Of a stretch of 20,377 nt of DNA, positions 2-15,880 are shown in pieces. Source of the stretch: a virus; IMG/VR virus record IMGVR_UViG_3300031841_001238, positions 1-20,377 of that record; one strand, written 5' to 3'. Each line of letters opens with the position of its first letter. Positions within the stretch are counted from its first letter, which is position 1. A program made the position numbers and the translations under genes. Below the pieces are notes generated by a model that was not told the DNA's origin, did not search any database, and was given only the letters and a program-made list of their open reading frames with translations.

Positions 2-1309
2 ACATTACCTGAACCGGCTGTTGTTAAAATGTGGAAAGATGTGCAGACAAATATTGGACGCTTCCAAAGTTTATTTAAAGATAATTTCATTGTTGTTGAC
101 AATTCTTCTGGTAGTAATTGGGAGAAAGCTACTACGAAAGGATTTAAATTCGCACAACGATTTGCAAATAAACCAGTCCGACATGCCAAAGCAATAAAAT
201 GGCTTGCACAATTCCGAAGTGGTCAAATGGAAGGTTGTATGGACCTGGAGGATATTAAACTTGTAGAAAGTATCATTGATATCCCAAGAAGAACATATGC
301 ACCTGCTGTATTTGATAACGAAGAATCCGATAATCCAAAAATCAAACCAAGTGTAAAAGAATTAATTAATAAACAATTAAAAGAATTTGAAACAGAATAC
401 CCAATCGTTAAAACATCTTTAATCGGCTCTATCCTTACAAAACGATATAGGAACGATGCTGATTTGGACATTAATGTTTTATTTGATGTACCACCAGAAA
501 AGGCAGAGGCAGAAAGAGAACGACTCTCCAAAAAGTATTTGTCATCAAGCAACCCAGATAATATCCAGGGTAAATTAATCCCAGGAACCGAACACCCAAT
601 TAACTATTATTTTATTACAAGCGAAAGCATATATGACGAACAGAATGGTAAGGCAGATGCTGTATTTGATATTGAAACAGATACCTTCATCAAACGCCCA
701 GAGGATTTTGTATTTGACCCAGACTTGTATATGCACGAATTTGATAGAAAAGTACAAGAGCTTGACATTATTAAAGGCGAATTAAAACGCGATATTATTG
801 ACTATAAAGAGTTGACAGAGCTCCAGCCAAGTGATATAATAGACTTGCAAGATAAAATTGAGGATAAACTAAAAGAAGTGGAAACCGGAATACAGGATTA
901 TGTACGTGTTGGTGACTTGGTTGACAAGGAACGCCGTGCCGCATTTGATACTGATATGACACCAGAACAGATTAAAACATTCTCTATTAAAAACAGATTG
1001 CCTAAAAATGTCATTTATAAAATGTTAGAGAAATATCATTACTTAAAATTCTATAAAATGTGTAAAAAGATACTTGATGATGGAAAAGTTGATGATGCTG
1101 AAATTGCAAAATTACAAACAGAGGCAACATTAGCTTCTTCTGATAGACATATCATCGATGCAATATTAAAGAAAGTGCAGGCGAAATTAGAAAAAGATTT
1201 AAAGAAAAATAATTATAACGATTTAAATGACATTGCCGCATTGGTAAAACAAAGAGTAGAACGAGATACCAAACGCAAAGGCCATTCAAGAATGAAGGAC
1301 CAGAAATGA
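2..1309 (+). CDS. Kinase-end/nucleotidyltransferase fusion protein, 5' partial
   Basis: The frame is open to the left edge, and the residues before the first ATG (position 29) read TLPEPAVVK without a stop. No Shine-Dalgarno precedes that ATG, so the gene very likely starts outside the window. Counting from the ATG, residues 1-60 (LFKDNFIVVDNS, then a basic stretch) resemble the C-terminal end of P-loop kinase-like proteins of marine phages; the Walker A part would be off-window. Residues 125-230 carry the DNA polymerase beta-type nucleotidyltransferase signature: G133-S134, then D145-L-D147, with a further acidic stretch (ADAVFDIETD) that could give the third metal-binding carboxylate. The C-terminus is lysine-rich and helical. 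The nucleotidyltransferase call is fairly firm; substrate is unknown. The stop overlaps the next start by ATGA. Confidence 0.7.
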   Translation, partial: TLPEPAVVKMWKDVQTNIGRFQSLFKDNFIVVDNSSGSNWEKATTKGFKFAQRFANKPVRHAKAIKWLAQFRSGQMEGCMDLEDIKLVESIIDIPRRTYAPAVFDNEESDNPKIKPSVKELINKQLKEFETEYPIVKTSLIGSILTKRYRNDADLDINVLFDVPPEKAEAERERLSKKYLSSSNPDNIQGKLIPGTEHPINYYFITSESIYDEQNGKADAVFDIETDTFIKRPEDFVFDPDLYMHEFDRKVQELDIIKGELKRDIIDYKELTELQPSDIIDLQDKIEDKLKEVETGIQDYVRVGDLVDKERRAAFDTDMTPEQIKTFSIKNRLPKNVIYKMLEKYHYLKFYKMCKKILDDGKVDDAEIAKLQTEATLASSDRHIIDAILKKVQAKLEKDLKKNNYNDLNDIAALVKQRVERDTKRKGHSRMKDQK

Positions 1310-1560
1310 AATCATATAAAGAATTTGTAGAAGAAGGATTTGCAATGCCTGATTACCCAATGCAAAAAGACCAAGTCCGTTATATGGACGGCGAATGGGT
1401 CACGGGTGACGCTGGCAAACCACATACATTTGACCACAGTAAAACTGGTGGTGAAAATTTAGACGATATGAATAAAGCTGTCCAAGCAGACAGAAAAAAG
1501 GAAAAAGTAGACCCAAGTATTCCTGGTAATACACAATTGGATATAGACCCGAATGATTAA
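1306..1560 (+). CDS. Small acidic protein with capsid-targeting-like N-terminus
   Basis: An 84-residue protein starting MKSYKEFVEEGF, close to the N-terminal peptide of T4 internal head proteins (MKTYQEFI type). The rest is polar and probably disordered, rich in Asp, Lys and Asn, with no recognisable enzyme motif. The start ATG overlaps the upstream stop (ATGA), and AAGGA at 1295-1299 is a good ribosome binding site. The gene end overlaps the next start by 8 bases, so the three genes are translationally coupled. It could be an internal head protein or a small partner of the ligase-fold protein that follows. The function is not recognised. Confidence 0.65.
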   Translation: MKSYKEFVEEGFAMPDYPMQKDQVRYMDGEWVTGDAGKPHTFDHSKTGGENLDDMNKAVQADRKKEKVDPSIPGNTQLDIDPND

Positions 1561-2788
1561 ATTTAAAAAATATATCGCAGAGGCCGCAGGTGCAAATCTT
1601 CATATGACGCACTTGGAAGATGCTGTCCTTGATGGTGGTGTCACTGGCACAAGAAATGTAATTAATTATTTAAGAAACATTCGCGATATGCTTTCTGGTT
1701 CTACAGCAACACCAGTAAGTCTTACCACAAAATGGGACGGTGCTCCTGCTATTTTTGCTGGTATTGACCCATCAGATGGCAAATTCTTTGTGGCAAAGAA
1801 AGGATTATTTAATAAGAATCCAAAATTATATAAAACAAATAGTGAAATAGATAATGAACTAAAAGGAGACCTTGCTGACAAGTTTAAGGTCGCCTTAGCA
1901 GAGTTTCCAAAACTCGGAATTGAAGGAGTAGTACAAGGTGATTTCTTATTTACAAAATCAGATCTTAAAACGGAAAACATTGATGGAAAACCGCATATTA
2001 CTTTCCATCCTAATACCATTGTTTATGCGGTACCTAAATCAACAGACCTCGGTAAAAAAATATCAGAATCCGAAATCGGTGTGGTCTGGCACACAACATA
2101 CAGAGGAACAAGTCTTGAAACAATGTCTGCAAGTTTTGGAGAGGAGATTGCATCAAAACAAAGCTCGGTTAAAAGCGTATGGTCAATAGACGCAACATTT
2201 AAAGACGAATCAGGAAATGCAACTCTTACCAAGGCAGAAAATAGAGATATTACAGCAAAGTTATCGGCTGCTGGAAAATTATTCAGAAAAATAAAAGCAG
2301 CAAAATTAAATACATTACATCAAAATACTGATTTAAATGCTCGTGTCAATACATACATTAATAGTAAGGTACGAGAAGGACAACGAATTACAAATGTAAA
2401 ACAATTTGTGATTGGGCTTCAACAATATATTCAAGAATATTATCAGAAAGAAGCAGATAAAGTTAAACAACAAAAAACAAAAGATGCTAAAATTGCGCAA
2501 GGTAATGTATTATTACAATACTTTAATAAGCGAGACATTAAACAGGTAGAAGCTATCTTTGAATTGTATAATTTACTTGTCGATGCAAAATATATGATAA
2601 TAAATAAATTAAACCAGGTAGAAGGAATTACAACTCTACTGAAAACAAGTAGTGGATTCGAGGTCACTGGCCAGGAAGGTTTTGTTGCTATCGACCATTA
2701 TAGTAAAAACGCACTAAAGATTGTGGATAGATTGGAATTTAGTAAAGCAAACTTTAGTACTGAATATATCAAAGGGTGGCAAAAATAA
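1553..2788 (+). CDS. Ligase-fold (KxDG) adenylyltransferase-like protein
   Basis: A 411-residue protein. Residues 1-11 (MIKFKKYIAEA) match the capsid-targeting-like pattern. Residues 18-26 (MTHLEDAVL) followed by K60-W-D-G63 and APAIF are typical of a phage family with the covalent nucleotidyltransferase (DNA/RNA ligase, mRNA capping) active-site lysine motif KxDG. Later blocks fit the same fold: AKKG at 81-84, GVVQGDFLF at 125-133, TFHPNTIVYAV at 150-160. The C-terminal half is helical and basic and is not a known ligase OB domain. I recall this family as an uncharacterised DUF of marine phages (DUF6267), which I cannot check. Ligase activity is inferred from the motif; the substrate could be RNA, DNA or protein. 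It overlaps its upstream neighbour by 8 bases. Confidence 0.7.
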   Translation: MIKFKKYIAEAAGANLHMTHLEDAVLDGGVTGTRNVINYLRNIRDMLSGSTATPVSLTTKWDGAPAIFAGIDPSDGKFFVAKKGLFNKNPKLYKTNSEIDNELKGDLADKFKVALAEFPKLGIEGVVQGDFLFTKSDLKTENIDGKPHITFHPNTIVYAVPKSTDLGKKISESEIGVVWHTTYRGTSLETMSASFGEEIASKQSSVKSVWSIDATFKDESGNATLTKAENRDITAKLSAAGKLFRKIKAAKLNTLHQNTDLNARVNTYINSKVREGQRITNVKQFVIGLQQYIQEYYQKEADKVKQQKTKDAKIAQGNVLLQYFNKRDIKQVEAIFELYNLLVDAKYMIINKLNQVEGITTLLKTSSGFEVTGQEGFVAIDHYSKNALKIVDRLEFSKANFSTEYIKGWQK

Positions 2789-3033
2789 TGGCTTGGGTCA
2801 CGGTACCAGGAAGTAATGGAACATGGGAATACGAGAATACAGCAACTACTGCTGATACCTATGTTGACTCTCCAGGCGTCGTATTAAATGGCGTCAGAAC
2901 ATTTACAGTACCTAATTCAGGTGGCCACACAACTCAAACTTATATCAAATGCAGAAAGCCAGGAAAAACCTTGGTGAATGGTGAAATCAATAAAGATTTT
3001 TACGATTATAGATTTAGTCAAGGAACACCATAA
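2788..3033 (+). CDS. Small virion-type protein
   Basis: An 81-residue protein, MAWVTVPGSNGTWEY onward, rich in Thr, Gly and aromatic residues with a predicted beta-rich character. An in-frame GTG lies four codons earlier, but the ATG at 2788 overlaps the upstream stop in the taATG pattern used repeatedly in this genome, so I chose it. It lies directly before a larger structural-type gene, with which it shares another taATG overlap. The sequence style is that of small tail or fibre-associated proteins of marine myophages. That role is inferred from style and position only. Confidence 0.6.
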   Translation: MAWVTVPGSNGTWEYENTATTADTYVDSPGVVLNGVRTFTVPNSGGHTTQTYIKCRKPGKTLVNGEINKDFYDYRFSQGTP

Positions 3034-3767
3034 TGGCAAAATATTATCCAACTGAAGATACTTTTTTAAACGCATCACGTGGATTAATCCAAGGTGGTGA
3101 AGTAAGAAATATTTTTGGATATCAAGAGGCTGCAGATACAACATTTAGAGTATTGTGGGAATTTGCTGCTACTAATTTAGTATTTCCTTCAAGCGCAATT
3201 CCATTAACTATCACATCAGCAAGTGGTAGTGACGATGGCAAGAGTTTATTAATTAAAGGTTTAGATGCTAATTGGAATGTTTTAACAGAAACAGTCACAC
3301 TTGTTGGTGGTGGAGATGTAGTCACAGATAATTCATTCTTAAGAATTAATGATGTTATATTAACAAGTGGAATTGAAAATATTGGTTTAATTACAGTACA
3401 AAATGCTGGTAAAACCGAAAAGTATGCAGGTATTAGAGTTGGTGATGGAAGAAATCAAGCATCTCATTTTTCAGTTCCTGCCGACCATTGTTATTACCTT
3501 TATCGTATCGATGCTTTTTCATCAGATAGTACATCAGCTAAACCTGGTATATTTAGAAATGTATCAGTTAATAACGCAAATGGTGGACAAGAATATAACG
3601 TTGCTCGAACAACATTCTTAGGAAATATGAATATCCAACGAAGGTTCCCGTTTAAGTATTCAGAAAAAACCGACATTCAGTTTCAATTAAGAACAGAGGT
3701 CGGAACACACGAAATGAATGTATTCGCCGAAGGTTTACTTTTAAGAGAACCAATTAGTACAAGTTAA
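3033..3767 (+). CDS. Probable virion structural protein
   Basis: A 244-residue protein with almost no charged clusters. It has alternating beta-type segments (LTITSASGSDDGKSLLIKGL, then VTLVGGGDVVTDNSFLRIND) and a C-terminal half containing RVGDGRNQASHFSVPADH. This pattern is familiar from virion proteins of marine T4-like phages, probably head decoration or tail/fibre-associated. It has no signal peptide, membrane segment or enzymatic motif. It starts at a taATG overlap with the small gene before it and ends five bases before a strong sigma-70 promoter, so it closes the structural block. Structural role is probable; the exact location in the virion cannot be told. Confidence 0.65.
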   Translation: MAKYYPTEDTFLNASRGLIQGGEVRNIFGYQEAADTTFRVLWEFAATNLVFPSSAIPLTITSASGSDDGKSLLIKGLDANWNVLTETVTLVGGGDVVTDNSFLRINDVILTSGIENIGLITVQNAGKTEKYAGIRVGDGRNQASHFSVPADHCYYLYRIDAFSSDSTSAKPGIFRNVSVNNANGGQEYNVARTTFLGNMNIQRRFPFKYSEKTDIQFQLRTEVGTHEMNVFAEGLLLREPISTS

Positions 3768-3771
3768 ATTG

Positions 3772-3824: not shown

Positions 3825-4418
3825 ATGCAAAACTTTATTGAAAATAAAACCGTTGCCTTAGTAGGTAATGCTCAGTCGTTATTCGACTTTCAATATGGTA
3901 GTGAAATTGATGACCATCAAGTGGTAATAAGAATTAACAATTCTGCTATCTTCTACGACGATTTAAATTCTCGTCATTCTCACGGAACTAAAATAGATAT
4001 TTGGGCCTTCTGGGACTATTGGAAAACAGCAACTGCTCACCATAGTTATACTACACCCAGAATGGCACAGTACATGAATAGTAAATATAATAAACTGGAC
4101 TTGGCAATGTCAAGAAAAGATAAAGGATTTATATTTAATAAAGTTGAATTTGGAGAGAAAATTAAAAATGATTTGTTCCGAGATACAGGGAATCCATCAG
4201 CAGGATTATCCATATTATATTTACTCAACGAATTTAATCCTTCAGCTGTAAATGTTTATGGATTTGATTTTAAAAGAACAAAAACCTTCCACAAGGAATA
4301 TAATGATGTTGATGACGATAGGTATGATTCCTTTAACAGACATAATTATAAATTCGAGGAAGAATACGCTCAACAAAAATTCTTTACTCAGGAGAAATTT
4401 AAATTAATAGGAGAATGA
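3825..4418 (+). CDS. GT29 sialyltransferase-like glycosyltransferase
   Basis: A 197-residue protein with the marks of glycosyltransferase family 29. An L-sialylmotif-like block VALVGNAQSL lies at residues 10-19 with RINN at 36-39. An S-sialylmotif-like block NPSAGLS is at 123-129, followed by VYGFDF (144-149) and a conserved-type histidine near H156. Known family members transfer sialic acid from CMP-sialic acid; whether this enzyme uses that donor is not known. It is shorter than eukaryotic GT29 enzymes and lacks a membrane anchor, so it should be cytoplasmic. It is the first gene after the sigma-70 promoter. Shine-Dalgarno pairing is poor. Nearby ATGs at 3811 and 3821 run quickly into stops. 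It overlaps no upstream gene, and its stop lies at the next start. Confidence 0.75.
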   Translation: MQNFIENKTVALVGNAQSLFDFQYGSEIDDHQVVIRINNSAIFYDDLNSRHSHGTKIDIWAFWDYWKTATAHHSYTTPRMAQYMNSKYNKLDLAMSRKDKGFIFNKVEFGEKIKNDLFRDTGNPSAGLSILYLLNEFNPSAVNVYGFDFKRTKTFHKEYNDVDDDRYDSFNRHNYKFEEEYAQQKFFTQEKFKLIGE

Positions 4419-4419
4419 A

Positions 4420-4986
4420 ATGGGAAGAATACGCGACCGCGGTCACGACGGTGGAAACATTTGGCGATGGCACACGATTGAAAAATATGTTAGAAAAAAC
4501 GGCTGGACAAAAGGGGCTGAACTTGGAGTTTGGCTTGGTGAAACATTTAAGCACCTTGTTCGTACATGTCACAATTTGCATCTTATTGGTGTTGACCTTT
4601 ATGAAGCTCAGCCAGGATATGACGGACCCGAACAATGGACCAGAGGTGAGAATGGCCATGCCTGGGACCATGAGACTTACTATAAAGACCTCGTAAATTT
4701 TTGCTCTCAATATCCAGACAGAGCAGAAATTATTAAGGATTATACAACTGAAGCAGCAAAACAAGTAGAAGATGAAAGTTTAGACTTTGTCTTTATTGAC
4801 GCTGACCACAGTTATAATGGTGTAATGCGAGATGTTGAAGCATGGGCACCTAAGGTGAGAAAGGGTGGTATGATTATTGGACATGATATTCATTTTCCAA
4901 CAGTAAAACAAGCTGTGGAAGAGCTATACGGAGAAGGTAATTATATTGTAGAAGATGATTTTTTATGGTTAGTTGAAAAGCAATAA
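4420..4986 (+). CDS. Class I SAM-dependent methyltransferase
   Basis: A 188-residue protein with a Rossmann-type methyltransferase layout. Motif I GAELGVWLGETF is at residues 32-43, an acidic ribose-binding position at D59 in IGVDLY, and the post-motif FIDADHSYNGV at 125-135 is followed by KGGMIIGHD (148-156). The IDADHSYNGV block is typical of the Methyltransf_24-like group often found with sugar and polysaccharide genes. The start at 4420 is supported by AGGAGA at 4408-4413. A competing ATG at 4415 opens a different frame that lacks the motifs. Position between two glycosyltransferases suggests O-methylation of a sugar or glycan intermediate; the acceptor is inferred. Confidence 0.8.
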   Translation: MGRIRDRGHDGGNIWRWHTIEKYVRKNGWTKGAELGVWLGETFKHLVRTCHNLHLIGVDLYEAQPGYDGPEQWTRGENGHAWDHETYYKDLVNFCSQYPDRAEIIKDYTTEAAKQVEDESLDFVFIDADHSYNGVMRDVEAWAPKVRKGGMIIGHDIHFPTVKQAVEELYGEGNYIVEDDFLWLVEKQ

Positions 4987-4996
4987 GGATAGTACA

Positions 4997-5539
4997 GTGA
5001 CAAAAAAGACCCGAGTAATTAATTTTTATGGCGGTCCATCTTCCGGCAAAAGCACAGCTGCTGCCGGATTGTTTTATAAGATGAAAATGTTGGGATACAG
5101 TGTAGAGCTGACCGACGAATTTGCCAAAGAGTGTGTATGGGAAGGAAATGTTCCTATGTTAAAAGACCAATTATGGGTTCTTGCACACCAACATCGTAAA
5201 ATTTTAAGATTGAAAGGTCAAGTGGATTATGTCATTACTGACAGTCCAGTATTATTATCTCCCATTTATAGAGAACTTTATGATGGTCCTTTATATTCAG
5301 ATTTAATTGACAAAATGGCCTTAGAGTGTTATAATATGTATGATAACATTAACTTTTTGTTAACTCGACCACAAGGCTTTGAATCTGATGGCCGAGCACA
5401 AAATGAAGAAGAAAGTGTAAATATAGACAAGGCAATATTAAATCAGTTTAATCTATTGGATATTAAATATACATTATTGGAGGGCGAAGACCCTGCCACA
5501 CAAGCATATTCAAAATTGGTGAATATACATGCACACTAA
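4997..5539 (+). CDS. Small P-loop ATPase/kinase-like protein
   Basis: A 180-residue protein using a GTG start, with AAGGA at 4985-4989 placed seven bases upstream. An in-frame TTG at 4973 lies inside the previous gene and has no comparable site. Walker A is GGPSSGKST (residues 12-20) and the Walker B-like strand is VDYVITDSP (77-84). The FYGGPSSGKST form and the DSP element resemble the NadR/AAA_28-like kinase group seen in many marine T4-like phages. The substrate is unknown. In this cassette it might phosphorylate a sugar or nucleotide precursor, but the family also occurs apart from glycan genes. Its end overlaps the following gene by 11 bases. Confidence 0.7.
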   Translation: MTKKTRVINFYGGPSSGKSTAAAGLFYKMKMLGYSVELTDEFAKECVWEGNVPMLKDQLWVLAHQHRKILRLKGQVDYVITDSPVLLSPIYRELYDGPLYSDLIDKMALECYNMYDNINFLLTRPQGFESDGRAQNEEESVNIDKAILNQFNLLDIKYTLLEGEDPATQAYSKLVNIHAH

Positions 5540-6188
5540 TATAGAAAAGAAATTAAGTCATATTTGGATTGGTCCAAAACCAGCTCCTTTGAAATGGATG
5601 TATACATGGCGTGATAAACACCCAGATTGGGAATATAGTATTTTTGATGACCGTATGCTTAAAGACAAACGATGGATTAACCAGGACCTTATCGAACATT
5701 ATTATAGAGCAAAAGCTTGGTGTGGCGTTTCTGATTTAATTCGTTATGAACTTTTATATGAAGAGGGTGGCTTTATTGCAGAAGCTGATATGATTTGCCT
5801 AGAAAATACAGACGAATTATGGCAATCACCAGAAGACCACGCATATACTTGTTATGAAAATGAAAAAGGGCGGCCTAATTTTGTTCAACCTATTTTTGGG
5901 TGTAATCCTGGAAATGAATTTGTTAAAACTGTAATTGATTCATTGCGTTTATTACGTCCAGGTGATTTACACAGACAACCACACAAATCTACAGGGAATG
6001 AATTTTTGGCTCAATTTATAGACCAATGGAAGCATAAACTCACTATTTGGCCATCACATTATTTCATTCCTCAATTTTATATTAATGGTTCACAGCGATA
6101 TAATGGACCAGACAAAGTTTATGCAGACCACAAATGGGGCTCAACTGGAATGGGCTTTAATTGTGTTGATTATTCACAAGGAGTATAA
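5529..6188 (+). CDS. GT32-like glycosyltransferase (sugar-binding DXD family)
   Basis: A 219-residue protein. The N-terminus LSHIWIGPKPAP matches the IPKxIHxIWIG-type opening of the Gly_transf_sug family, and SDLIRYELLYEEGG at 68-81 is the hallmark of that family. The metal-binding DXD that normally follows (GGxYxDxD) is replaced by E85-A86-D87 in GGFIAEADM. The enzyme should transfer a sugar from a nucleotide sugar to a glycan acceptor in the cytoplasm. Translation is coupled by an 11-base overlap with the kinase-like gene and by taATG with the sulfotransferase after it. The family call is firm; donor and acceptor are unknown. Confidence 0.78.
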   Translation: MHTNIEKKLSHIWIGPKPAPLKWMYTWRDKHPDWEYSIFDDRMLKDKRWINQDLIEHYYRAKAWCGVSDLIRYELLYEEGGFIAEADMICLENTDELWQSPEDHAYTCYENEKGRPNFVQPIFGCNPGNEFVKTVIDSLRLLRPGDLHRQPHKSTGNEFLAQFIDQWKHKLTIWPSHYFIPQFYINGSQRYNGPDKVYADHKWGSTGMGFNCVDYSQGV

Positions 6189-6850
6189 TGTACTTATCAC
6201 ACAAATACAAATTTCTCTTTTTACGCACGCCGAAAACTGCTTCAAGTAGTTTATCGGATTTCTTTATTCGTAATATTGATGACCCAGATGCTGTTTATAC
6301 AGAAGTAGAAGATAGTAATTTACGTGGAACACTTGATGAAAGTATTGTATCAAGGTATCGTCCTTATGCATTCTATCATTTTTCTTTGCAACAATTAATT
6401 GCTGAAGGTATTATTACCGAGGAACAAGCAAGTGAATATTATTGTTTTGCATTATTAAGAAATCCAATTGATAGAGCAAAAAGCTTTTATTACTTTTACA
6501 AGAAATTTAGGTCTCCAAATAAACCACCTTCATTAGAAGAATATAAATCATGGACTAATAATGGTGTATTTGATAATGATGCAAATTCTGCAATCGTACA
6601 AACAGACCTGTTAAAATTTAGAAATACATTATATGGTGAATATTGGTTATATGAAGATTTAGGAACTAGATTGGAATACTTTATGGAACATCAATTAGGT
6701 GTGCCAATTCAATTTCCACTACCTCGACATAAAACAGATACTAGAAAAAATAGAGATAACGAAATTATGTTTGACGAGGAATCATATACTGATATAATAA
6801 AACATTTTAGTGCTGATTATGAAATGTATAATGAACTTAGGAATATCTAA
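6188..6850 (+). CDS. Sulfotransferase family protein
   Basis: A 220-residue protein. FLRTPKTASSSL (residues 11-22) is the 5'-phosphosulfate binding loop of the PAPS-dependent sulfotransferases. LLRNPIDRAKSFYYFY (89-104) is the 3'-phosphate binding element (RxPxxRxxS). The overall pattern is that of the Sulfotransfer_2 group, which modifies carbohydrates. The enzyme would move sulfate from host PAPS to a hydroxyl, most plausibly on the glycan made by the neighbouring glycosyltransferases. No membrane segment is visible. It is coupled by one-base taATG overlaps at both ends, so it is an integral part of this operon. Confidence 0.8.
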   Translation: MYLSHKYKFLFLRTPKTASSSLSDFFIRNIDDPDAVYTEVEDSNLRGTLDESIVSRYRPYAFYHFSLQQLIAEGIITEEQASEYYCFALLRNPIDRAKSFYYFYKKFRSPNKPPSLEEYKSWTNNGVFDNDANSAIVQTDLLKFRNTLYGEYWLYEDLGTRLEYFMEHQLGVPIQFPLPRHKTDTRKNRDNEIMFDEESYTDIIKHFSADYEMYNELRNI

Positions 6851-7533
6851 TGAAAGCCTATATTCTCAGAATTGATACACCTATAAGCCGTGCATATGCT
6901 GAAGTTTGTGCAAAATCGTGTGACGATGTAGGGTGTAATTGGGAATATTTTGATGGTTGGTCTGATATTACTGGCCGTGCCGCATGGTGTCAAACTGGTA
7001 TTAAGATGAAATTCTTTGAACCACCTATGATTATTGATAGAATGACACCAGCACAAAAGGCAAATGCCTGTTCTGCAGGACATGGTGCAATATGGAAAAA
7101 GATTGCTGATGGAGACGACGAAGTTGGTATTGTATTGGAACACGATGCTTTATTATTACATAAACCAACTGTAAAGATACCGGATGGCCTATTGGTGGTA
7201 CTTGGATATAAATTGACTGACCCATCAAGATATGACCATAAGGCAGCTGGTACACCAACATCGTTAATAAATATTACTGGACATGAAGGCGCACATGCTT
7301 ATATGATGACGAAAAATACTGCTCAATTTCTTGTAAATGAAATAGAGGAAAAAGGTGTTTTAGGCGCTGTTGATAATGCATATTTTATTAGAGGTCAACG
7401 CAGAACATCTGTGCCTCTTGCAATTATGTCTCCCACACCAGCAATAGGTTGGTTGAGAGAATCGACAATTTGGTCGTCTAGCGCGGCAGTTAATTATGAG
7501 TTTATACCTTCATTCGCAGAGTATTATAAATAA
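6850..7533 (+). CDS. GT25 (LPS-type) glycosyltransferase
   Basis: A 227-residue protein with the family 25 pattern: an ACSAGHGAIW block at residues 73-82, IVLEHDALL at 94-102 (E-H-D in the place of the usual EDD metal site), GAHAYMMTKNTAQFLV at 147-162, and VDNAYF at 174-179. These enzymes are known from lipooligosaccharide biosynthesis, where they add galactose or related sugars. It is the last gene of the cassette and starts at a taATG overlap with the sulfotransferase gene. A late promoter box overlaps its stop codon, so the next transcription unit begins here. Confidence 0.78.
   Translation: MKAYILRIDTPISRAYAEVCAKSCDDVGCNWEYFDGWSDITGRAAWCQTGIKMKFFEPPMIIDRMTPAQKANACSAGHGAIWKKIADGDDEVGIVLEHDALLLHKPTVKIPDGLLVVLGYKLTDPSRYDHKAAGTPTSLINITGHEGAHAYMMTKNTAQFLVNEIEEKGVLGAVDNAYFIRGQRRTSVPLAIMSPTPAIGWLRESTIWSSSAAVNYEFIPSFAEYYK
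7525..7532 (+). promoter_or_regulatory. T4-type late promoter TATAAATA
   Basis: An exact TATAAATA box, the T4 late -10 consensus read by the phage sigma factor gp55. It overlaps the stop codon of the GT25 gene. The next gene starts 36 bases downstream, a suitable distance. There is no -35 box, as expected for late promoters. It separates the glycan cassette from the late block. Confidence 0.7.
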
Positions 7534-7568: not shown

Positions 7569-9407
7569 ATGGACCCAAAAGATAAATTAAATCCACGCCC
7601 AGAGGCCGAGTACGACGACGAGTCTCAGCACGATGGCATGGAACCTAGAAAGTCTAAAGAAGATTCAAAAGACAAAGAAAAGAAAAAGAAAGGTTCTTTA
7701 CTTAAAAAGGATGGCGAAGGACGAATCGATAGTTCAAAGTATATTGAAACAGAACCAACGATTTCAGAAGCTGTAAGAAAATCTACAGCTGTAATTGGAT
7801 TTGGTCGTATGAATCCTCCTACAGTAGGCCATGAAAAATTAGTAAATAAAATTATTAATGAAGCCATTTCCCGTGATGGCGACCCATTGGTATATCTTTC
7901 AAAAACACAAGATTCAGATAAAAATCCACTCACATATGACCAAAAATTAAGATATGCAAAAGCATTCTTTGGTAAAAAATATTTTCCTACTACAAGATCC
8001 CGAACAATTATAGAAGTTGCAAAAGAGCTTGACGGTGTATATGAAAATTTAGTTGTTGTAGTTGGTGCTGATAGATTAAAAGAATTTAGTGGATTAATGA
8101 ACAGATATAATGGTCGTGATTATAATTACAAAACATTAGATGTCATTTCTGCAGGCGAACGTGACCCAGATTCAGATGGAGTCACCGGTATGTCTGCATC
8201 CAAAATGAGAGCTGCAGCAGAAGATGGCGATTTAAAATCATTCACAAAAGGTGTTCCTTCCAAAGGCAAACGATTCGCAAGTGCCATGTATAATGATGTT
8301 CGCAAAGGACTTGGCATGGTAGAAGAATCATTTGATGATATGGTAGCCAATTTCTTAGGCGAAAGAGTTGTAAATGGTAAACTTGACCCATTATCAGCAA
8401 TGGGCAAATCAAAACTCACAGGCCGAGAGGTTGCTCAATATTATAGAGATAATCCTAAGGCGAAGTCAGCCTCAAAGAAAAAAGAAGTTAAATTAGGTAT
8501 TGAACTTGCGCTTGATTTAAGTGGTAATTATAATTACGCTATTAAAGAAATTGATAAAATCAAACGCAATCTTTCAAAACACCCAGAAGTTCAAAAAGCA
8601 TTACAATTTGCAAATGAATCCGTAAATCAAGAACTCTACACTGCATCCTCATTCCGTAAAAGATTATTAGATGAAAAGATGACAGTTGCTGATAAAAGAG
8701 CAAAAAGTAATTATTATAAAGATGATTCAAAGGACGGTAAATTATCTAAATCCACATCTGCAAAACGCCACGCACAATTTGCAAAACAAACAAAAATGGA
8801 CGATGATGACCCAGCTGCATATAAACCAGCACCTGGTGATGCCACAGCAAAAACAAAACCATCAACACATACAAAAAGATTTAAAGCAATGTTTGGTGAG
8901 GCAAACGGTGCATTTTTAAAACGACCTCACCAATTATTAAGATCTGACAATACAGTAAACTTTGATTATCGCTTTAAAATGTATTCTGCTGCAAGAGCAA
9001 TGGACGAAAGAGCAAAACAAAGAGAAGAAATTAAAGCACAAATCGAAGGTGAAGGCGATCCTTGTTGGGATGGCTATAAACAAGTTGGTATGAAAAAAGG
9101 CCGCAAAGGTAATATGGTACCAAATTGTGTTAAAGAAGAATTAGAACAGCTAGCAAATGAAGTCGAATTTATATTCATGAATGAGGCAGACACTGATAAA
9201 ACATTAAGAGATAAGGCAAAGAAATCAGGTATGCCTTTTAATATCTTAAAGAAAGTGTTTGATAGAGGTGTCGCCGCATGGAGAACTGGTCACAGACCAG
9301 GGACTACTCCTACACAGTGGGGATTTGCCCGTGTTAATAGTTTCGCAACGAAATCAAAAGGAACATGGGGTAAAGCCGACAAAGATCTAGCAGATAAGGT
9401 TAAATAA
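7569..9407 (+). CDS. Multidomain nucleotidylyltransferase (HIGH family) fusion protein
   Basis: A 612-residue mosaic. Residues 1-70 are charged and probably disordered. Residues 73-245 form a nucleotidylyltransferase-superfamily domain: GFGRMNPPTVGH (77-88) is the GxFxPxHxGH ATP-binding motif, and GMSASKMR (207-214) is the second, ISSTxxR-like motif. Residues 306-353 hold a module shared with the protein at 13659. Residues 390-445 (SAKRHAQFAKQ, DDDDPAAYKPAPGD) and 497-521 (DPCWDGYKQVGMKKG, then VPNC) are pieces that recur in marine phage proteins. Residues 545-612 (AWRTGHRPGTTPTQWGFARVNS) match a domain I recall as DUF5824. The substrate could be NMN or a pantetheine- or glycerol-type phosphate; it cannot be told. 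It follows an exact late promoter, which fits a virion role. Confidence 0.75.
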   Translation: MDPKDKLNPRPEAEYDDESQHDGMEPRKSKEDSKDKEKKKKGSLLKKDGEGRIDSSKYIETEPTISEAVRKSTAVIGFGRMNPPTVGHEKLVNKIINEAISRDGDPLVYLSKTQDSDKNPLTYDQKLRYAKAFFGKKYFPTTRSRTIIEVAKELDGVYENLVVVVGADRLKEFSGLMNRYNGRDYNYKTLDVISAGERDPDSDGVTGMSASKMRAAAEDGDLKSFTKGVPSKGKRFASAMYNDVRKGLGMVEESFDDMVANFLGERVVNGKLDPLSAMGKSKLTGREVAQYYRDNPKAKSASKKKEVKLGIELALDLSGNYNYAIKEIDKIKRNLSKHPEVQKALQFANESVNQELYTASSFRKRLLDEKMTVADKRAKSNYYKDDSKDGKLSKSTSAKRHAQFAKQTKMDDDDPAAYKPAPGDATAKTKPSTHTKRFKAMFGEANGAFLKRPHQLLRSDNTVNFDYRFKMYSAARAMDERAKQREEIKAQIEGEGDPCWDGYKQVGMKKGRKGNMVPNCVKEELEQLANEVEFIFMNEADTDKTLRDKAKKSGMPFNILKKVFDRGVAAWRTGHRPGTTPTQWGFARVNSFATKSKGTWGKADKDLADKVK

Positions 9408-9992: not shown

Positions 9993-11417
9993 ATGCGAAA
10001 TTTCTCAAACTTTTTATCTGAAGCGAAAGGCGACGACTTTCAACTCAGAGTAATCATGGTCACGACTGTGCCGGATGCAAACCAACCGGCATTTCGTACC
10101 GCCTCTCACATGGAAACAGTATGTAAGGAACGCAATGTTCCTTTTTTTGGCTTTGATGTTGAACGTGGTTCTATTGAATGGGCAGATGGTATAAGTTCAT
10201 ATGTTATTCGCAATCGTAAAGACCAAACAGGCTTTAAAGTTGGGCCAGGCACTCTTTGTATTGTTCGAGGTAATGTAAGACATAATAAAGGCTGGTTCGA
10301 TAAGGTTTCACAATTTGAGAAATCAGGTTGTACAATGGTCAACGCAAGAGAAGTTGCTGAATTGTGTAATGACAAATATCGCTGTTATCTCAGATTACAA
10401 GACTTTGGTTTAACACAACCAAGAACAGTCCTAATTCCAAACGAGGAAGATGATGGTATTCAATCAGCATTAGAAAACCTTGATAGACCATTTCCGATTA
10501 TTATGAAAACATTGGAAGGTTCAGAAGGTGTTGGTGTTGTTAAAATTGATTCGGAATCTTCACTTAAAGCTTTTATCCAATTAATCTATAAACAAGATGA
10601 GGCTGCCGCCTTATTAATCCAAGAATATATTGAAATGAAAGAAGATTACCGTGTTCATGTATTGGACGGTAAGGTCATAGCAAGTATGACTCGTGGTAAA
10701 GTCAAAGGTGATTTTCGTTCAAATGTCACACAAGGTGGTGATGTGAATGAAGTCAAACTCACAAAATTAGAAGTAGAACAATGTCTATTGGCAGCAAAGG
10801 CTGTAGATGGCCGATGGGTTGCTGTTGATTTTATTCCTTCAAAGGATAGAGAAAAAGAACCTCCTTTCATATTAGAGGTTAATCATAGTCCTGGCACAAA
10901 AGGTATTGAATCGGCAATGTCTGGTTCAAAAGAAAAAGGTGATAAGGAACATCCACTTTTAAATTTACTAATAGACCATTTTTCACAAAAGAAATTTCAT
11001 TGGTCACACCCAACACAGGTTGGATATATAGAAATGGTGACGATAGAACCATTTGGACAATTAACAGCAAAACTTGATACAGGTAATTATAGATACCCAG
11101 TACTACATGCTGATAAATATAAAATTGATGGAAAGAATATCACATTCACATCGTTTGGCAAAACCATAAAAACCAAACTGATAGGTGATTACGTTTCTAA
11201 AACAATGGTCGGCGAAGATAAAAGACCATTGGTAAAACTCAATTATGAATTTGCTGGTAAAAAATACGGCGAAATTACTTTTGGTTTAGATGAGCGTGAT
11301 GGTCTTACAACAGATGTTCTATTAAATAGAAGATTAATGAATAAAATGAATGTAATGGTTAACCCAAACAGAAAATATGTCCGTACAACAGCATTCGAGG
11401 CAGAGGAAAAAGAATAA
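9993..11417 (+). CDS. RimK-like ATP-grasp ligase fused to RimB-like protease domain
   Basis: A 474-residue protein. Residues 1-11 (MRNFSNFLSEA) are capsid-targeting-like. Residues about 17-335 are a RimK-type ATP-grasp ligase: a pre-ATP-grasp domain, then PIIMKTLEGSEGVGV (168-182) as the ATP loop with K172, LIQEYIEMKEDYRVHV (208-223), and the metal-binding ILEVNHSPG at 293-301. RimK adds glutamate to the C-terminus of ribosomal protein S6. Residues 342-465 form a second domain with KLDTGNYRYPVLHA (360-373) and LLNRRLMNKMNVMVNPNRKYV (443-463), the pattern of RimB-like retropepsin-fold proteases, including a DTG triplet. In bacteria RimK and RimB can be neighbouring genes with opposing action. 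Here they appear in one chain. Ligase domain call is firm; protease domain is fairly firm. Confidence 0.8.
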   Translation: MRNFSNFLSEAKGDDFQLRVIMVTTVPDANQPAFRTASHMETVCKERNVPFFGFDVERGSIEWADGISSYVIRNRKDQTGFKVGPGTLCIVRGNVRHNKGWFDKVSQFEKSGCTMVNAREVAELCNDKYRCYLRLQDFGLTQPRTVLIPNEEDDGIQSALENLDRPFPIIMKTLEGSEGVGVVKIDSESSLKAFIQLIYKQDEAAALLIQEYIEMKEDYRVHVLDGKVIASMTRGKVKGDFRSNVTQGGDVNEVKLTKLEVEQCLLAAKAVDGRWVAVDFIPSKDREKEPPFILEVNHSPGTKGIESAMSGSKEKGDKEHPLLNLLIDHFSQKKFHWSHPTQVGYIEMVTIEPFGQLTAKLDTGNYRYPVLHADKYKIDGKNITFTSFGKTIKTKLIGDYVSKTMVGEDKRPLVKLNYEFAGKKYGEITFGLDERDGLTTDVLLNRRLMNKMNVMVNPNRKYVRTTAFEAEEKE

Positions 11418-12307
11418 TGAGAGCAGTAAAAGGTAGTATTAACGAAGCATTAAGACAAGTTGCAGCTTATAATAGTAATAGACTTGCTGAAGCAGCAATG
11501 TCAAAACCACAATCCATTGAAGATTACGCAAGAGCAGTAGCTGTTGATAAAAAAGAACAACAATGGATTATTGATAATGAAGATTCATTTTCAAAGTTTC
11601 ATAATAATAGCGCACTGAAGAAGTCTTGGTTATCTCTATCATATCCAATTTACGATAATGATTATTACTTTGCTTTTATTGGTGATAGCCAAACTGAAAA
11701 TTCAAAGCTCAATTCTGAAGCAAACCGTGAATTAAGAAAATACGCAAAAAGTAAATTAAGTAATGAACAAATTTACGACGAAATGGAAAAGATGTTCAGC
11801 ATGACTAGATATTCTAATGTTGGTGCTGGTGATACAATGACTCGCGAAGAATTGTGGAGAGCAATCCAACATATTCGTAAAGATTATAAAGAAGAAGCAC
11901 AAATCGAAGGTTGGGAAGAACTTGAAGAAAAAGCTTTAATGGGTAGAATGAAAACTATAGCACGTAGCTTACTCGATAAAATGAGAAAACGCGCTAAGAA
12001 AGTTTCCCTACCTGAAAGCTTAGAAGAGGCAAGAATTCCTAATTATAAACCCACGAAGTTTGAAGGTAAAGAGTTCGATAGAAAAAAAGAAATTAGAAGT
12101 TTAAAAAACATGCAAAAGGCAATTCACAAAGTTGCAAAGATGCAAGATGAAATGCAATATACTGCTGAAACAGGTGGAAGTCGTCAAAGAGGTAATCCAC
12201 ATGCAATATATGAAAGTTTAGTAAATGCCGAACAGGCAATATTTGATTACATGGGTGGTATCGAGAGAGGATATTTCGATGGCATCATTGATATGGACAG
12301 AGATTAA
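11417..12307 (+). CDS. Conserved-type late protein of unknown function
   Basis: A 296-residue protein not recognised. It is mostly alpha-helical and charged, with a Tyr/Phe-rich part at residues 65-90 and Lys/Arg-rich helices from 170 to 240. A motif TREELWRAIQHIRKDY lies at about 141-156. No catalytic motif, signal peptide or membrane segment is visible. The N-terminus (MRAVKGSINEALRQV) is only a weak relative of the capsid-targeting-like peptides. It starts at a taATG overlap with the RimK/RimB fusion gene, so it is probably co-expressed and could be an internal head protein. Confidence 0.55.
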   Translation: MRAVKGSINEALRQVAAYNSNRLAEAAMSKPQSIEDYARAVAVDKKEQQWIIDNEDSFSKFHNNSALKKSWLSLSYPIYDNDYYFAFIGDSQTENSKLNSEANRELRKYAKSKLSNEQIYDEMEKMFSMTRYSNVGAGDTMTREELWRAIQHIRKDYKEEAQIEGWEELEEKALMGRMKTIARSLLDKMRKRAKKVSLPESLEEARIPNYKPTKFEGKEFDRKKEIRSLKNMQKAIHKVAKMQDEMQYTAETGGSRQRGNPHAIYESLVNAEQAIFDYMGGIERGYFDGIIDMDRD

Positions 12308-12313
12308 ATTCTA

Positions 12314-12574
12314 ATGAAAAGTTTTAAACAATTTAACGAACAGGGTAATCACATTTACCAAAAGTTTATTCTTGCCACAAAAGCAGGAGAGGATACCTGG
12401 AAATTAACTGGTCAGGACGATGACATTAAATCAGCAAAAGATAGATTGGCTGATATTTGGACACAAGGTGGTGCAAAGGATAAAGCAATTATAGACGCCA
12501 GACTTGCACAAAAAAATAAATGGAAACTATACCAAGTCGTAAACTGGGACGGCAAACAAGGCAAGAAAGGATAA
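12314..12574 (+). CDS. Small protein with capsid-targeting-like N-terminus
   Basis: An 86-residue protein beginning MKSFKQFNEQGN, one of the clear members of the shared N-terminal pattern, though it lacks a hydrophobic-x-E ending. The remainder is basic and may form a small alpha/beta fold (IYQKFILATKAGEDTWKL, then WKLYQVVNWDG). It is six bases from the previous gene and three bases from the next. It is not recognised, but size, charge and opening peptide fit an internal head protein. Confidence 0.55.
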   Translation: MKSFKQFNEQGNHIYQKFILATKAGEDTWKLTGQDDDIKSAKDRLADIWTQGGAKDKAIIDARLAQKNKWKLYQVVNWDGKQGKKG

Positions 12575-12577
12575 CCA

Positions 12578-13207
12578 ATGGATAATAAACAATTTATTAA
12601 AGATTTACTAACTCAAAAGCTTGATGAAGTAATTGGAGGTCCTAAATCAGTAGCTGATGGCCAACTTGACTCTTACTATGCAATGCAGGCTGCTAAAGCA
12701 AAGGCCAAGAAAGACGGTAAAGTTTGGGATAAACTAGGTCAAGATGAAAAGGATCGTTATGTTGCTCCAGAAATGGAAAAAGCTGGTTATGAGAAAAAAG
12801 ATGGTAATACAAAATGGACAAGGGTATCAGATAAAAAAGACGACGAACCTAAAAAAGACAAACCAGATCTTTCAACACCTGAAAAAAGAATTAAACATTT
12901 TAGTGATAATCCAACCGCATCTATGGCTGGTACTGATGTATCAGATGATGAAGCAAAACAAATTCAGTTAGCAAGAATGGAAAAGCAACTTGAAAGTCTT
13001 TTTGATAAAGCACAAAAAGCCCAAGAAAAAATGTATGATGCCGAAGAATCAGGCGATGATGATGCTTACGAAACAGCTGATGAAGAAAACGAATATTGGG
13101 AAGAAAAAATTCGATCACTAGAAAATAAAATAGAAGATTTAAAAGACGAAATCGATAGTAAAAGAGAAGAAACAATAAAATCATTTAAAAATTTTATAAT
13201 AAAATAA
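12578..13207 (+). CDS. Charged coiled-coil late protein
   Basis: A 209-residue protein, very rich in Lys, Asp and Glu. Residues 1-50 contain MDNKQFIKDLLTQKLDEVIG and YYAMQAAKAKAKKDGKVWDK. A disordered acidic/basic middle follows. Residues 130-205 form a long coiled coil (RSLENKIEDLKDEIDSKREE near the end). It resembles scaffold-like or internal virion proteins by composition only. It ends in a taATG overlap with the next gene. The function is not recognised. Confidence 0.5.
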   Translation: MDNKQFIKDLLTQKLDEVIGGPKSVADGQLDSYYAMQAAKAKAKKDGKVWDKLGQDEKDRYVAPEMEKAGYEKKDGNTKWTRVSDKKDDEPKKDKPDLSTPEKRIKHFSDNPTASMAGTDVSDDEAKQIQLARMEKQLESLFDKAQKAQEKMYDAEESGDDDAYETADEENEYWEEKIRSLENKIEDLKDEIDSKREETIKSFKNFIIK

Positions 13208-13662
13208 TGCTATCATTTTCGGATTATTTGGAAGAAAAAGCTAAATCAAAGGCTCAACAAAGGCTTTTTGGTTTGGCACTATCGGTAAAAGATGGTGATA
13301 CACCTGAATCCGAAGTCTCTCAACAAGTGAGAGATATGGCAAAGAATATTTCCAAAAAGGATTTGGAAGATTATGCCAAAACAAAACACAAAGGTTTGCC
13401 AGATAAGGTAAACGAAGAAGGTGATTTGTATTCGGACGATAAGCCAAATGATACGGCTAAAGGTACTGGGTATTCTGATAAAAAGAAGGCTCAAAAGACA
13501 ATAGATATTGCGTCTAAATATAATAGACAAAGAAGAATGGCTATTATTAATACAATGTATTATAGGGCCAAACATCATGCAAACCAAACACAAGGTATGC
13601 GCGATGCTATGAAAGTTTTTAAGACTTGGATAGACAAAAATAAAATCGGAGACGATAAATGA
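13207..13662 (+). CDS. DUF3008-like two-part small protein
   Basis: A 151-residue protein. Residues 1-10 (MLSFSDYLEE) are a capsid-targeting-like peptide. Residues 12-67, KSKAQQRLFGLALSVKDGD through LEDYAKTKHKGLP, match a short phage and bacterial family that I recall as DUF3008. Residues 92-145 (KKAQKTIDIASKYNRQRRMA, then YYRAKHHANQTQGMRDAMKVF) form a second basic helical module common in marine phage proteins. Neither part has a known function. It starts at taATG and ends with ATGA into the next gene, so it is in the middle of a tightly coupled late string. Confidence 0.6.
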   Translation: MLSFSDYLEEKAKSKAQQRLFGLALSVKDGDTPESEVSQQVRDMAKNISKKDLEDYAKTKHKGLPDKVNEEGDLYSDDKPNDTAKGTGYSDKKKAQKTIDIASKYNRQRRMAIINTMYYRAKHHANQTQGMRDAMKVFKTWIDKNKIGDDK

Positions 13663-15497
13663 AAAAATTTAGAAATTTATTAACAGGATTGGTCGAATCC
13701 GATGCTGCCTATGGTGCTTCATTAAAAAAGATTGCCCACGACGAAAAAATTAAATCTTTATCTAAAAGAGATAGAGAAACATTAATGCGTATTGCTGATA
13801 TGATGAAAAATGCAAATCGCGATGACATTAAACACGAAGTTGCAAATAGCCCAGAGGAAAGAAGAAAAGAACGTCTTGCTAGAATGCAAAGACAATCTGG
13901 TAGTGAAACACATAGAGATAGACAGAAAAGATTAGGTAAACCTCAAACTGAAGAAACTGAACTCATAGAGGGTGGCGATTGTTATCATTGCGATGGTAAA
14001 GATGCTGATTGTAAGCATTGTGATGGTTCAGGTTATGTTCAGTTTAAAGATGATGACAGAGATTCTCCTATCACAAGTAAAGATATTAAAATGGCAATAG
14101 GTATTGCCAACGACCCAAGATATAAAGACGGTAATTATTCTGCTGCATATTCAAAAATTTCAAAACTCAAAAAAGGTTTGGTATCGCACCCAAGAGTTAA
14201 GGACGCATTAAGACAAGCTAACGAATCAGTCAATTTAGACGAATCAAAACTTACTTTGTCTACACCAATGTATAATGCAATCATGAAAATGGGTTTACCC
14301 CAGTTGATGAAGAAACATGATGCACATGTTGATAGAAAAGAAACAGATAAAGAGCATACAACTCTCTCAGGCGAGAGAGGTTTCGGTACTGAAGTATCAA
14401 AACTGATTAAAAAGAATGCTTCAAAACTTAAAAAAATATTAGATGAATCAGCTGTTGAAAACAGTGGCAATATTTCCAGAACAGACGCATTTACAAATAT
14501 AAAAAGAATTGCCAAAGAATTACAAAAGGAATCACCAAATAGATATAGCCCTCTCCAAATGGCAAAAGCTAAAAAAGAAAGAGAGGAACGAAGAAAGAAA
14601 TCTGGTGACTCTGAAAGAAATAGATATCAAAGATTAAAGCAAAGAGCCTATGGCAACTACATGGGTGGTCTCAAAGATGACTTTGCATATATTGAAGCTA
14701 CATTAGAAGAGAATTATAGAATACTTGCAACCAAAGGTATGGGAACTGAAACTCCATCTTCTGCAAATAACATTAAGAAAAATGATATAGAGATGGATTA
14801 TTACGATGCTTCTGGTAGCAAAAGACGAGGTAAAATCTCTAATATAGATAATGAAACATATACTGTAAGAGACCTCGACGATGGTAAATATCGTAAATAT
14901 AAATTCCTTGATAGAGAAAAAGCTAAAGAATATTTAAAGAAAGAAAATATCAACGAAAATGATATGTCTTTAGACGACATTAAAAAGAAATGGGCTAAAG
15001 AAATTATTGCCTTCCAAGATAATGGAAAGGATTTACCATCAAGTGCAATGTCAGATTTCTATGGTTATAGAGATTCAGATTCTATTAAAACAGATGACCC
15101 TGATGAGTTTGATGATTTTGTTATGGGTTTACAAATGGGCAAGTATAGAGAAGCATTAGGTTTAAAAGAAGCTTCTGCAAAAGCCGATGCAATGAAAGCC
15201 ATCAAAAGAGATAGAGATTTCCAACAAGTTAAAGATGTAGATGTAAGGGCAACTACAGCTGATATGAAACTTGCTAAAAAGAATCCTATTGTACAATTAA
15301 GAAAAATTCTTGATTACAAGGGTGGTACAATGGAATTCTTAAATAAGAAAAAATTAAAACTGAAGAGTGATGAAGCTGATGCTTTATTACGAGGTTTTGA
15401 TTCACTCCAAAAAGTGCAGGACAAAGAGAAATATCAGCTATTAATCTCTAAGGACCCTGCAAGCCTTAAAAAGATTCTGAAAATTGTAAAACGATGA
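13659..15497 (+). CDS. Large mosaic late protein with DnaJ-like zinc cluster
   Basis: A 612-residue charged protein. The start MKKFRNLLTGLVES is a weaker relative of the capsid-targeting-like peptide. Residues 106-126 hold C108-x2-C111-DGK and C118-x2-C121-DGSG, the CxxCxGxG style of DnaJ zinc fingers, but only two copies rather than four. Residues 140-192 are the same module as in the protein at 7569, ending in the identical ANESVN. Further helical segments (SGERGFGTEVSKLIKKNASK; RYQRLKQRAYGNYMGGLKDD) are of a kind seen in marine phage virion proteins. No catalytic site is visible. It could be an internal head or tail protein. Both ends overlap neighbours by ATGA. Confidence 0.6.
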   Translation: MKKFRNLLTGLVESDAAYGASLKKIAHDEKIKSLSKRDRETLMRIADMMKNANRDDIKHEVANSPEERRKERLARMQRQSGSETHRDRQKRLGKPQTEETELIEGGDCYHCDGKDADCKHCDGSGYVQFKDDDRDSPITSKDIKMAIGIANDPRYKDGNYSAAYSKISKLKKGLVSHPRVKDALRQANESVNLDESKLTLSTPMYNAIMKMGLPQLMKKHDAHVDRKETDKEHTTLSGERGFGTEVSKLIKKNASKLKKILDESAVENSGNISRTDAFTNIKRIAKELQKESPNRYSPLQMAKAKKEREERRKKSGDSERNRYQRLKQRAYGNYMGGLKDDFAYIEATLEENYRILATKGMGTETPSSANNIKKNDIEMDYYDASGSKRRGKISNIDNETYTVRDLDDGKYRKYKFLDREKAKEYLKKENINENDMSLDDIKKKWAKEIIAFQDNGKDLPSSAMSDFYGYRDSDSIKTDDPDEFDDFVMGLQMGKYREALGLKEASAKADAMKAIKRDRDFQQVKDVDVRATTADMKLAKKNPIVQLRKILDYKGGTMEFLNKKKLKLKSDEADALLRGFDSLQKVQDKEKYQLLISKDPASLKKILKIVKR

Positions 15498-15880
15498 AGC
15501 GATTCAACGAATCATTTGGTTTATATGAGGGAGTCGTTGTACCTCTCGAGCAACCATTGGTAGAGTTTGATACTTCTGCTGGTTTATTAGCAGCCGAAAA
15601 AGAACCGGAATTAAATAAACCAAAAAGGTCAAGTGGAGACAAAAAATATGTTGTCTATGTAAGAAATCCAAAAACAGGCAACATTAAGAAAATACAATTT
15701 GGTGATGAGAAAGGTGGGCTGACCTCTAAGATTAATGATAAAGGGGCTGCAGCAAGTTTTGCCGCAAGACATAATTGTGATACAAAAACAGATAAATTAA
15801 GTCCAGGTTATTGGGCTTGTCGCCTTCCAAGATATGCCAAGGAATTGGGGTTAAAAGGTGGCGGAAATTACTTTTGGTAA
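15494..15880 (+). CDS. Small protein with YWxC-type domain (DUF5872-like)
   Basis: A 128-residue protein. The start MKRFNESFGLYEG is an imperfect capsid-targeting-like peptide. Residues 51-115 (KYVVYVRNPKTGNIKKIQFG, then SFAARHNCDTKTDKLSPGYWACRL) match a short domain of marine phages and giant viruses that I recall as DUF5872; C94 and C107 lie near histidine and could bind metal. It ends GGGNYFW. The function of this domain is unknown. It overlaps the next gene by 23 bases, one of the longer overlaps here. Confidence 0.6.
   Translation: MKRFNESFGLYEGVVVPLEQPLVEFDTSAGLLAAEKEPELNKPKRSSGDKKYVVYVRNPKTGNIKKIQFGDEKGGLTSKINDKGAAASFAARHNCDTKTDKLSPGYWACRLPRYAKELGLKGGGNYFW

Follow-up and report, generated by a model that had tools for sequence, protein, structure and literature searches.

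A T4-type capsid-targeting-like N-terminal peptide on unrelated proteins of marine T4-like phages

In bacteriophage T4, the internal proteins IPII and IPIII open with a capsid-targeting sequence (CTS), MKTYQEFIAE↓A, where the arrow, here and below, marks a known or putative cleavage site (Mullaney and Black, 1996; reviewed in PMC9026906, PMC9958956). The first ten residues of IPIII are sufficient for packaging, and amber-suppressor mutants assigned targeting mainly to residues 4 and 7 and processing to residues 8 and 10, an Asp at position 10 stopping the cut with targeting unaffected (PMC9026906). The signal itself is already known from T-even phages, and its use by T4-like phages to pack various proteins had been proposed in the T4 literature (PMC9026906). 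The present study concerns a ten-residue N-terminal peptide of this kind, hereafter the tag, borne by several proteins encoded in a stretch of viral DNA of 20,377 nucleotides (IMG/VR record IMGVR_UViG_3300031841_001238, positions 1 to 20,377), hereafter the window, a genome fragment from a marine T4-like phage of the Kyanoviridae type. With a probability of about 0.85, the tag is a propeptide that serves as a capsid-targeting signal in the manner of the T4 CTS, is cut by the prohead protease gp21 and brings in cargo to be injected with the DNA.

The ten-residue tag, its register and its carriers

An earlier note on this DNA, made from the letters alone, had reported a common ten-residue pattern opening five proteins with unrelated bodies, namely those starting at 1306, 1553, 9993, 12314 and 13207, together with weaker versions at 13659 and 15494. 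All five N-termini are present at these coordinates. The strict motif M..[FY]..[FY][ILVMF].E is matched exactly by four of the proteins (1306, 1553, 9993 and 13207), against 0.0047 matches expected in the 30 window genes from random draws of their own composition, and such a number was reached in 0 of 20,000 random trials. The fifth, at 12314, is a near match with N at position 8, E at 9 and Q at 10; aromatic residues at positions 4 and 7 are found in 5/5 tags, the hydrophobic residue 8 and E10 in 4/5. When a profile built solely from the NMNAT tags of other phages was applied to 29 window genes, the five tags took the five highest scores (19.9 to 6.0; Table 1), followed by 13659 at 4.5, i.e., borderline, and 12578 at 0.4. 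The pattern on the five proteins thus holds; of the two weaker peptides, the one at 13659 (MKKFRNLLTG) is doubtful, and the one at 15494 is ruled out as a tag by a score of -9.8, i.e., background. Both proteins nonetheless exhibit a hydrophobic-x-E followed by a small residue slightly downstream (LVE↓S and LYE↓G, respectively). A second, near-identical IMG/VR contig with the same gene series (L010) keeps the window tags, including the near tag at 12314, its counterpart of the 1306 peptide reading MKTYKEFVE then G.

The register of the tag was defined on the NMNAT proteins, for which IMG/VR was searched with the P-SSM2 NMNAT body deprived of its N-terminus. The 80 loci kept, which lie nearest to a single query and hence do not count as 80 independent cases, gave 41 distinct 14-mers, with F4 in 41/41, F7 in 41/41, L or I at position 8 in 40/41 and E10 in 39/41, positions 5, 6 and 9 being variable. 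As a positive control in T4, the pattern returns IPII, IPIII and gp61.1, and nothing else. At the level of the letters, the likeness of the window and NMNAT tags to the T4 CTS is one that falls on the positions proven important by mutation, and the resemblance to the T4 internal proteins noted earlier is thereby confirmed in the same register, with functional positions 4, 7, 8 and 10. As a side observation, T4 gp61.1 (NC_000866 18966-19130, minus strand; L044 667-831) is a hypothetical protein of 54 residues beginning with MKTFKEFIKE then D, and it was not found described anywhere as an internal protein.

The tag is modular, in that the proteins bearing it are many, unrelated and in good part enzymes. 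In the window, the tagged bodies are indeed unrelated, comprising a DUF6267 protein, a RimK-like ATP-grasp protein, a DUF3008 protein and two proteins without family. Once the tag was removed from 112 tagged IMG/VR proteins, the bodies fell into at least 37 single-linkage clusters, one of which aligns with DUF6267; the named families include cytidylyltransferase, DUF192, GNAT acetyltransferase, glucosaminidase and a DPBB protein, and several bodies have no enzyme family. Among the pattern matches listed from IMG/VR, 116/117 stand at gene starts, i.e., with an in-frame stop no more than 30 codons upstream, versus 37/60 for a spacing control made of the same residues plus one spacer residue (p = 1e-11); the tag scan holds at least 117 matches and the control scan is complete at 60, so that these totals are not comparable as rates. 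Neither is the pattern evenly spread over other genes, the strict tag occurring 25 times in 2212 called genes from nine phage genomes and the window, and each of the four controls for spacing or order 2-4 times, in a gene set where the caller missed a few overlapping genes (e.g., S-CREM2 ORF14 and S-SZBM1_192). Separately, one tagged protein of 138 residues (L073 3736-4149) has a YYHGTPES...GF start that recalls ADP-ribosyltransferases, such as the injected T4 protein Alt; it has no Pfam match, and its E-value of 0.096 to a tRNA 2'-phosphotransferase is not significant.

Tagged proteins in virions and the head-protease-like end of the tag

Published virion proteomes of relatives, obtained from whole virions purified on caesium chloride (CsCl) with heads and tails together, allow the tag to be compared with virion content. 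For S-CREM2, the proteome lists 52 proteins (PMC10665884), and the N-termini of all 219 annotated proteins were read, i.e., 52 detected and 167 undetected. The strict motif is found in 4/52 detected versus 0/167 undetected proteins (p = 0.003), namely a SAM hydrolase (MKDFDSFLEE), an APH-like kinase (MKRFDAFLTE), a cytidylyltransferase (MKNFSSFLTE↓A; ORF154) and ORF136 (MQTFSMFFSE). The five best profile scores of the 219 all belong to virion-detected proteins, with the SAM hydrolase, the kinase and the cytidylyltransferase among them (p = 0.0006), an aromatic-only variant of the motif gives 4/52 versus 1/167 (p = 0.012), and a rank test over all 26 non-structural virion proteins gives p = 0.02. 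Among the 24 listed structural proteins, none is tagged. Virions of S-SCSM1 and S-SZBM1 likewise contain a tagged NMNAT/cytidylyltransferase (MKSFLQFLKE↓A and MRFRQFIIE↓A, respectively). Over the three phages, six of the nine known strictly tagged proteins were detected (P ~0.002 given the overall detection rates), in a list of nine that is possibly incomplete for S-SCSM1 and S-SZBM1. Tagged proteins, which the earlier note expected in virions, are as such found there in relatives; the virions of these phages contain tagged enzymes, so that the peptide very probably marks enzymes riding inside the virus. The S-CREM2 paper nowhere mentions targeting or an N-terminal feature (PMC10665884). Alongside these proteins, the Cas9-like virion nuclease ORF12 of S-CREM2 (L034 7704-10313) has a displaced LRFASFMAE↓AA, 16 residues inside its annotated start, for which the start may be wrongly annotated or the tag may work internally.

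The end of the tag was compared with the site at which the head protease matures the capsid. Homologues of gp21 are present in 8/8 marine relatives examined, whose predicted major capsid sites read ILTE↓A, FLAE↓A, FLTE↓T, ILTE↓T, MLNE↓V, FLSE↓A, FLSE↓A and LLTE↓A; in T4, the corresponding place in gp23 reads FLTE↓A and ends the 65-residue piece cut off by gp21. Tag ends read FLTE↓A, FLSE↓A, FITE↓A, YIAE↓A and similar. The putative processing site of the tag (F-L/I-x-E then A/S/T) hence resembles the predicted capsid maturation site, a comparison covering these eight relatives, the head genes lying outside the window fragment. Of separate interest, the capsid-protein arm after the predicted cleavage site (G-[FY]-T-G...GPxAGYDPLM-like) is repeated in virion or head-annotated proteins, namely S-CREM2 ORF160 (L036 28342-29235), S-SCSM1_97 (L050 9122-9307) and Syn9 gp190 (L048 11430-11954).

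Proposed mechanism and its alternatives

In the mechanism proposed, the aromatic residues 4 and 7 would bind the newly synthesized protein to the scaffold core while the prohead grows. Once the shell is assembled, gp21 would cut behind E10, in the context F-L/I-x-E↓A/S/T as in the major capsid protein, which would free the cargo within the head, and the cargo would enter the next host cell together with the DNA. The window phage would use its tags in the same manner.

Several facts weigh against this proposal. No cleaved N-terminus has been reported, and the authors of the proteomes allow for carry-over of abundant proteins. In S-CREM2, a loose form of the motif is not enriched (6/52 versus 9/167, p = 0.11), and as such only the strict form or the profile is usable; the majority of the non-structural virion proteins are untagged, which makes the tag one route into the virion and not the sole one. 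Conversely, S-SZBM1_191, S-SZBM1_192 and S-SCSM1_30 are strictly tagged and undetected, and a DNA helicase of phage C48C1 (L051 2420-3919), a protein not known from virions, opens with MKDYSHFMVE then A. Two window tags are poor protease sites, i.e., 12314 with Q10 and 13207 with K11, and their proteins may be targeted but poorly cut. Lastly, the DUF6267 proteins S-SZBM1_141 and that of HTVC008M have no tag; the untagged S-SZBM1 protein, together with the window cytidylyltransferase having an ISE↓A extension instead, indicates that a body can acquire or lose its tag.

Among the alternatives, the tagged proteins could be assembly or scaffold helpers of the prohead, mostly degraded or left behind rather than delivered. 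The T4 core also contains proteins degraded by gp21 and several tagged bodies have no enzyme family, but tagged enzymes are still detectable in mature CsCl-purified virions and many tagged bodies are catalytic domains with no obvious role in assembly, which renders such a function unlikely. The peptide could otherwise direct proteins to the tail, baseplate, neck, membrane or replication site, since presence in a virion is not presence in the head interior and the proteomes do not separate head from tail; yet the functional positions equal those of the T4 head signal, the tag end resembles the head-protease site of the capsid protein and the listed S-CREM2 tail and baseplate proteins are all untagged, so that another destination is quite improbable. 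That the proteins resemble one another at the N-terminus by coincidence, through a preference in translation starts or by common descent, with no role in targeting, can practically be set aside, for although MKx starts are common and residues 2-3 alone say little, four matches stand against the 0.0047 expected, the tag sits on at least 37 unrelated bodies, positions 4, 7, 8 and 10 are conserved where 5, 6 and 9 vary, and virion proteins are enriched in it. Head targeting with cleavage and injection thus remains the preferred explanation, and the packing-tag interpretation of the earlier note is supported, relatives bearing it out on both of the refuting conditions that it named.

The window cluster and related systems

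The window cluster extends from a truncated kinase/nucleotidyltransferase gene (2-1309) to ~15880 (Table 1). Its DUF6267 protein is 97% identical to the L010 counterpart and 46-49% identical to the versions of phage C48C1, Methylophilales phage Melnitz and Stenotrophomonas phage DLP6, and 465 phage records match it, mostly cyanophages. The cluster located behind the primase/helicase gene in Melnitz, HTVC008M and S-SZBM1 comprises DUF6267 along with a gene of the cytidylyltransferase or NMNAT type. The window cluster is broken up by sugar-, methyl- and sulfo-transferase-type genes (3825-7533), all untagged, which stand between the DUF6267 and cytidylyltransferase genes and encode a GT29 sialyltransferase-like protein, a methyltransferase, a sulfotransferase and others. 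Beyond the upstream window edge, L010 has one extra tagged gene (MKRFGNYITE then G), and its counterpart of the cut-off gene opens with a tag-like peptide (Table 1).

Table 1. Tags and tag-related gene products of the window, in order of position.
Feature	Positions	Strand	Evidence and remarks
5'-truncated gene	2..1309	+	zeta-toxin-like P-loop and nucleotidyltransferase domains; full version in L010 starts MKSFLEYKE
Tag MKSYKEFVEE, then G	1306..1335	+	strict motif; profile 14.0
Small tagged protein, 84 amino acids	1306..1560	+	no Pfam, PHROGs or NCBIfam match
Tag MIKFKKYIAE, then A	1553..1582	+	strict motif; profile 6.0
Tagged DUF6267 protein, ligase-like KxDG and EGxV motifs	1553..2788	+	PF19782, E 5e-106
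Cytidylyltransferase/NMNAT-type protein, untagged here	7569..9407	+	PHROG 3041, E 5e-97
Tag MRNFSNFLSE, then A	9993..10022	+	strict motif; profile 19.9, best of the window
Tagged RimK-like ATP-grasp ligase with C-terminal Zn_protease/retropepsin-like domain	9993..11417	+	PF08443, PF05618
Near tag MKSFKQFNEQ, then G	12314..12343	+	profile 12.9; kept in L010
Small near-tagged protein, 86 amino acids	12314..12574	+	no family match (Pfam, PHROGs, NCBIfam)
Tag MLSFSDYLEE, then K	13207..13236	+	strict motif; profile 9.5
Tag fused directly to DUF3008 domain	13207..13662	+	PF11450, E 5e-16, residues 12-68
Doubtful tag MKKFRNLLTG	13659..13688	+	profile 4.5, level of the best untagged S-CREM2 proteins

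In the alignment of DUF6267 proteins, most relatives exhibit tag-type N-termini, the body beginning near residue 15-18. In the AlphaFold2 model of the window protein, residues 1-17 are unstructured ahead of a well-predicted domain, with a predicted local distance difference test (pLDDT) below 50, which fits the expectation for a removable peptide. As for the body, K60, D62, G63, E375 and G376 are invariant, and these KxDG and EGxV motifs resemble those of covalent nucleotidyltransferases (ligases). Identification by fold was rejected, the model being confident and the matches to DNA ligases weak (best E 0.08, low TM-score), and the term ligase-like is as such a lead from motifs. In the 9993 protein, PF08443 covers residues 126-308 (E 1e-27) and PF05618 residues 343-465 (E 2e-5), with TIGR00768 slightly under its cut-off (E 3e-41) and weak matches to retropepsin-like models. 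The protein at 7569-9407 has an N-terminal extension ending in ISE↓A ahead of the catalytic domain, and its relatives are tagged virion proteins in S-CREM2, S-SZBM1 and S-SCSM1. For DUF3008, a DUF3008-like protein of S-SCSM1 (_93), annotated as a virion protein, is untagged.

The RimK-like ligase with its peptidase-like domain, the DUF6267 and DUF3008 proteins and the two small proteins without family are candidates for the cargo of the window phage, which a kinase/nucleotidyltransferase from the truncated first gene would join; any action in the host would be theirs to exert after entry. In this first gene, a zeta-toxin-like P-loop kinase and a Pol-beta-type nucleotidyltransferase appear to be fused (full counterpart at L010 7631-9400). 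Two further features were seen in the cluster. The protein encoded at 11417-12307 opens with MRAVKGSINE then A, i.e., a protease-like site after residue 10 with no aromatic pair, and the proteins at 7569-9407 and 13659-15497 have in common a stretch of ~35 residues (GNYNYAIKEIDKIKRNLSKHPEVQKALQFANESVN and GNYSAAYSKISKLKKGLVSHPRVKDALRQANESVN, respectively). That the tagged proteins are late, as initially proposed, is not supported by promoters: TATAAATA occurs twice in the window, 37 nt before 7569 and 34 nt before 16167, and neither this sequence nor CTAAATA exceeds its chance frequency there.

Cyanophage virion proteomes hold enzymes, i.e., NMNAT-like, kinase, SAM hydrolase and Cas9-like nuclease, that their authors could not tell from carry-over; a head-targeting peptide on these enzymes gives a reason for their presence in virions, which is testable by mutation. 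Extending this, we consider it rather probable that a single readable head-address tag is common to marine T4-like phages, that each of them fills its head by this means with an enzyme set of its own, acting in the host ahead of phage expression, and that injected proteins are predictable from the genome. The set proposed under this broader reading would comprise NMNAT-type proteins, ligase-like DUF6267, the RimK-type ligase with a peptidase-like domain, the zeta-like kinase/nucleotidyltransferase, SAM hydrolase and the Cas9-like nuclease. If so, unassigned genes of very abundant ocean phages could be sorted by sequence into probably injected or not, and a hidden first-strike set of proteins would become visible, perhaps including anti-defence and metabolism-shifting enzymes. 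As far as the literature was searched, what is new is the spread of the signal over marine T4-like phages, its many enzyme carriers, the grouping of tagged genes next to one another and the connection with enzymes whose presence in virion proteomes lacked an explanation; no paper linking capsid targeting with marine or cyanobacterial phages was found, in a search outside which most subscription journals fell.

Four described systems bear comparison. In the giant phage SPN3US, a gp21-like protease cuts gp53 and gp54 after Glu, and the first 15 residues are identical on these two diverged proteins, but the motif is another one, has no aromatic pair and is shared by paralogues rather than unrelated bodies (PMC5694885). 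In phage P1, N-terminal residues of DarB are sufficient to send a foreign protein to the capsid, although the Dar proteins have no common consensus and DarB needs >9 residues (PMC9024508). T4 Alt, an ADP-ribosyltransferase, is an enzyme that travels in the head, is cleaved by gp21 after a Glu (at ITE-6) and is injected; its propeptide, however, has six residues and lacks the aromatic pair, and Alt is cut at the C-terminus as well. With respect to the T4 CTS itself, the T4 internal proteins are small and basic, whereas here many carriers are enzymes, and several neighbouring genes of one cluster bear the tag, in another phage family, and the window body families (DUF6267, RimK-like and DUF3008) are by family matches other than those of the T4 internal proteins; for the proteins here, packaging and cutting are putative. 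Like the T4 CTS, the tag is N-terminal and ten residues long, with aromatic residues at positions 4 and 7, a hydrophobic residue at 8, E10 and often a small residue at 11; like it, the tag is common to proteins with different bodies, and the marine relatives examined have gp21 and a predicted matching site in the capsid protein.

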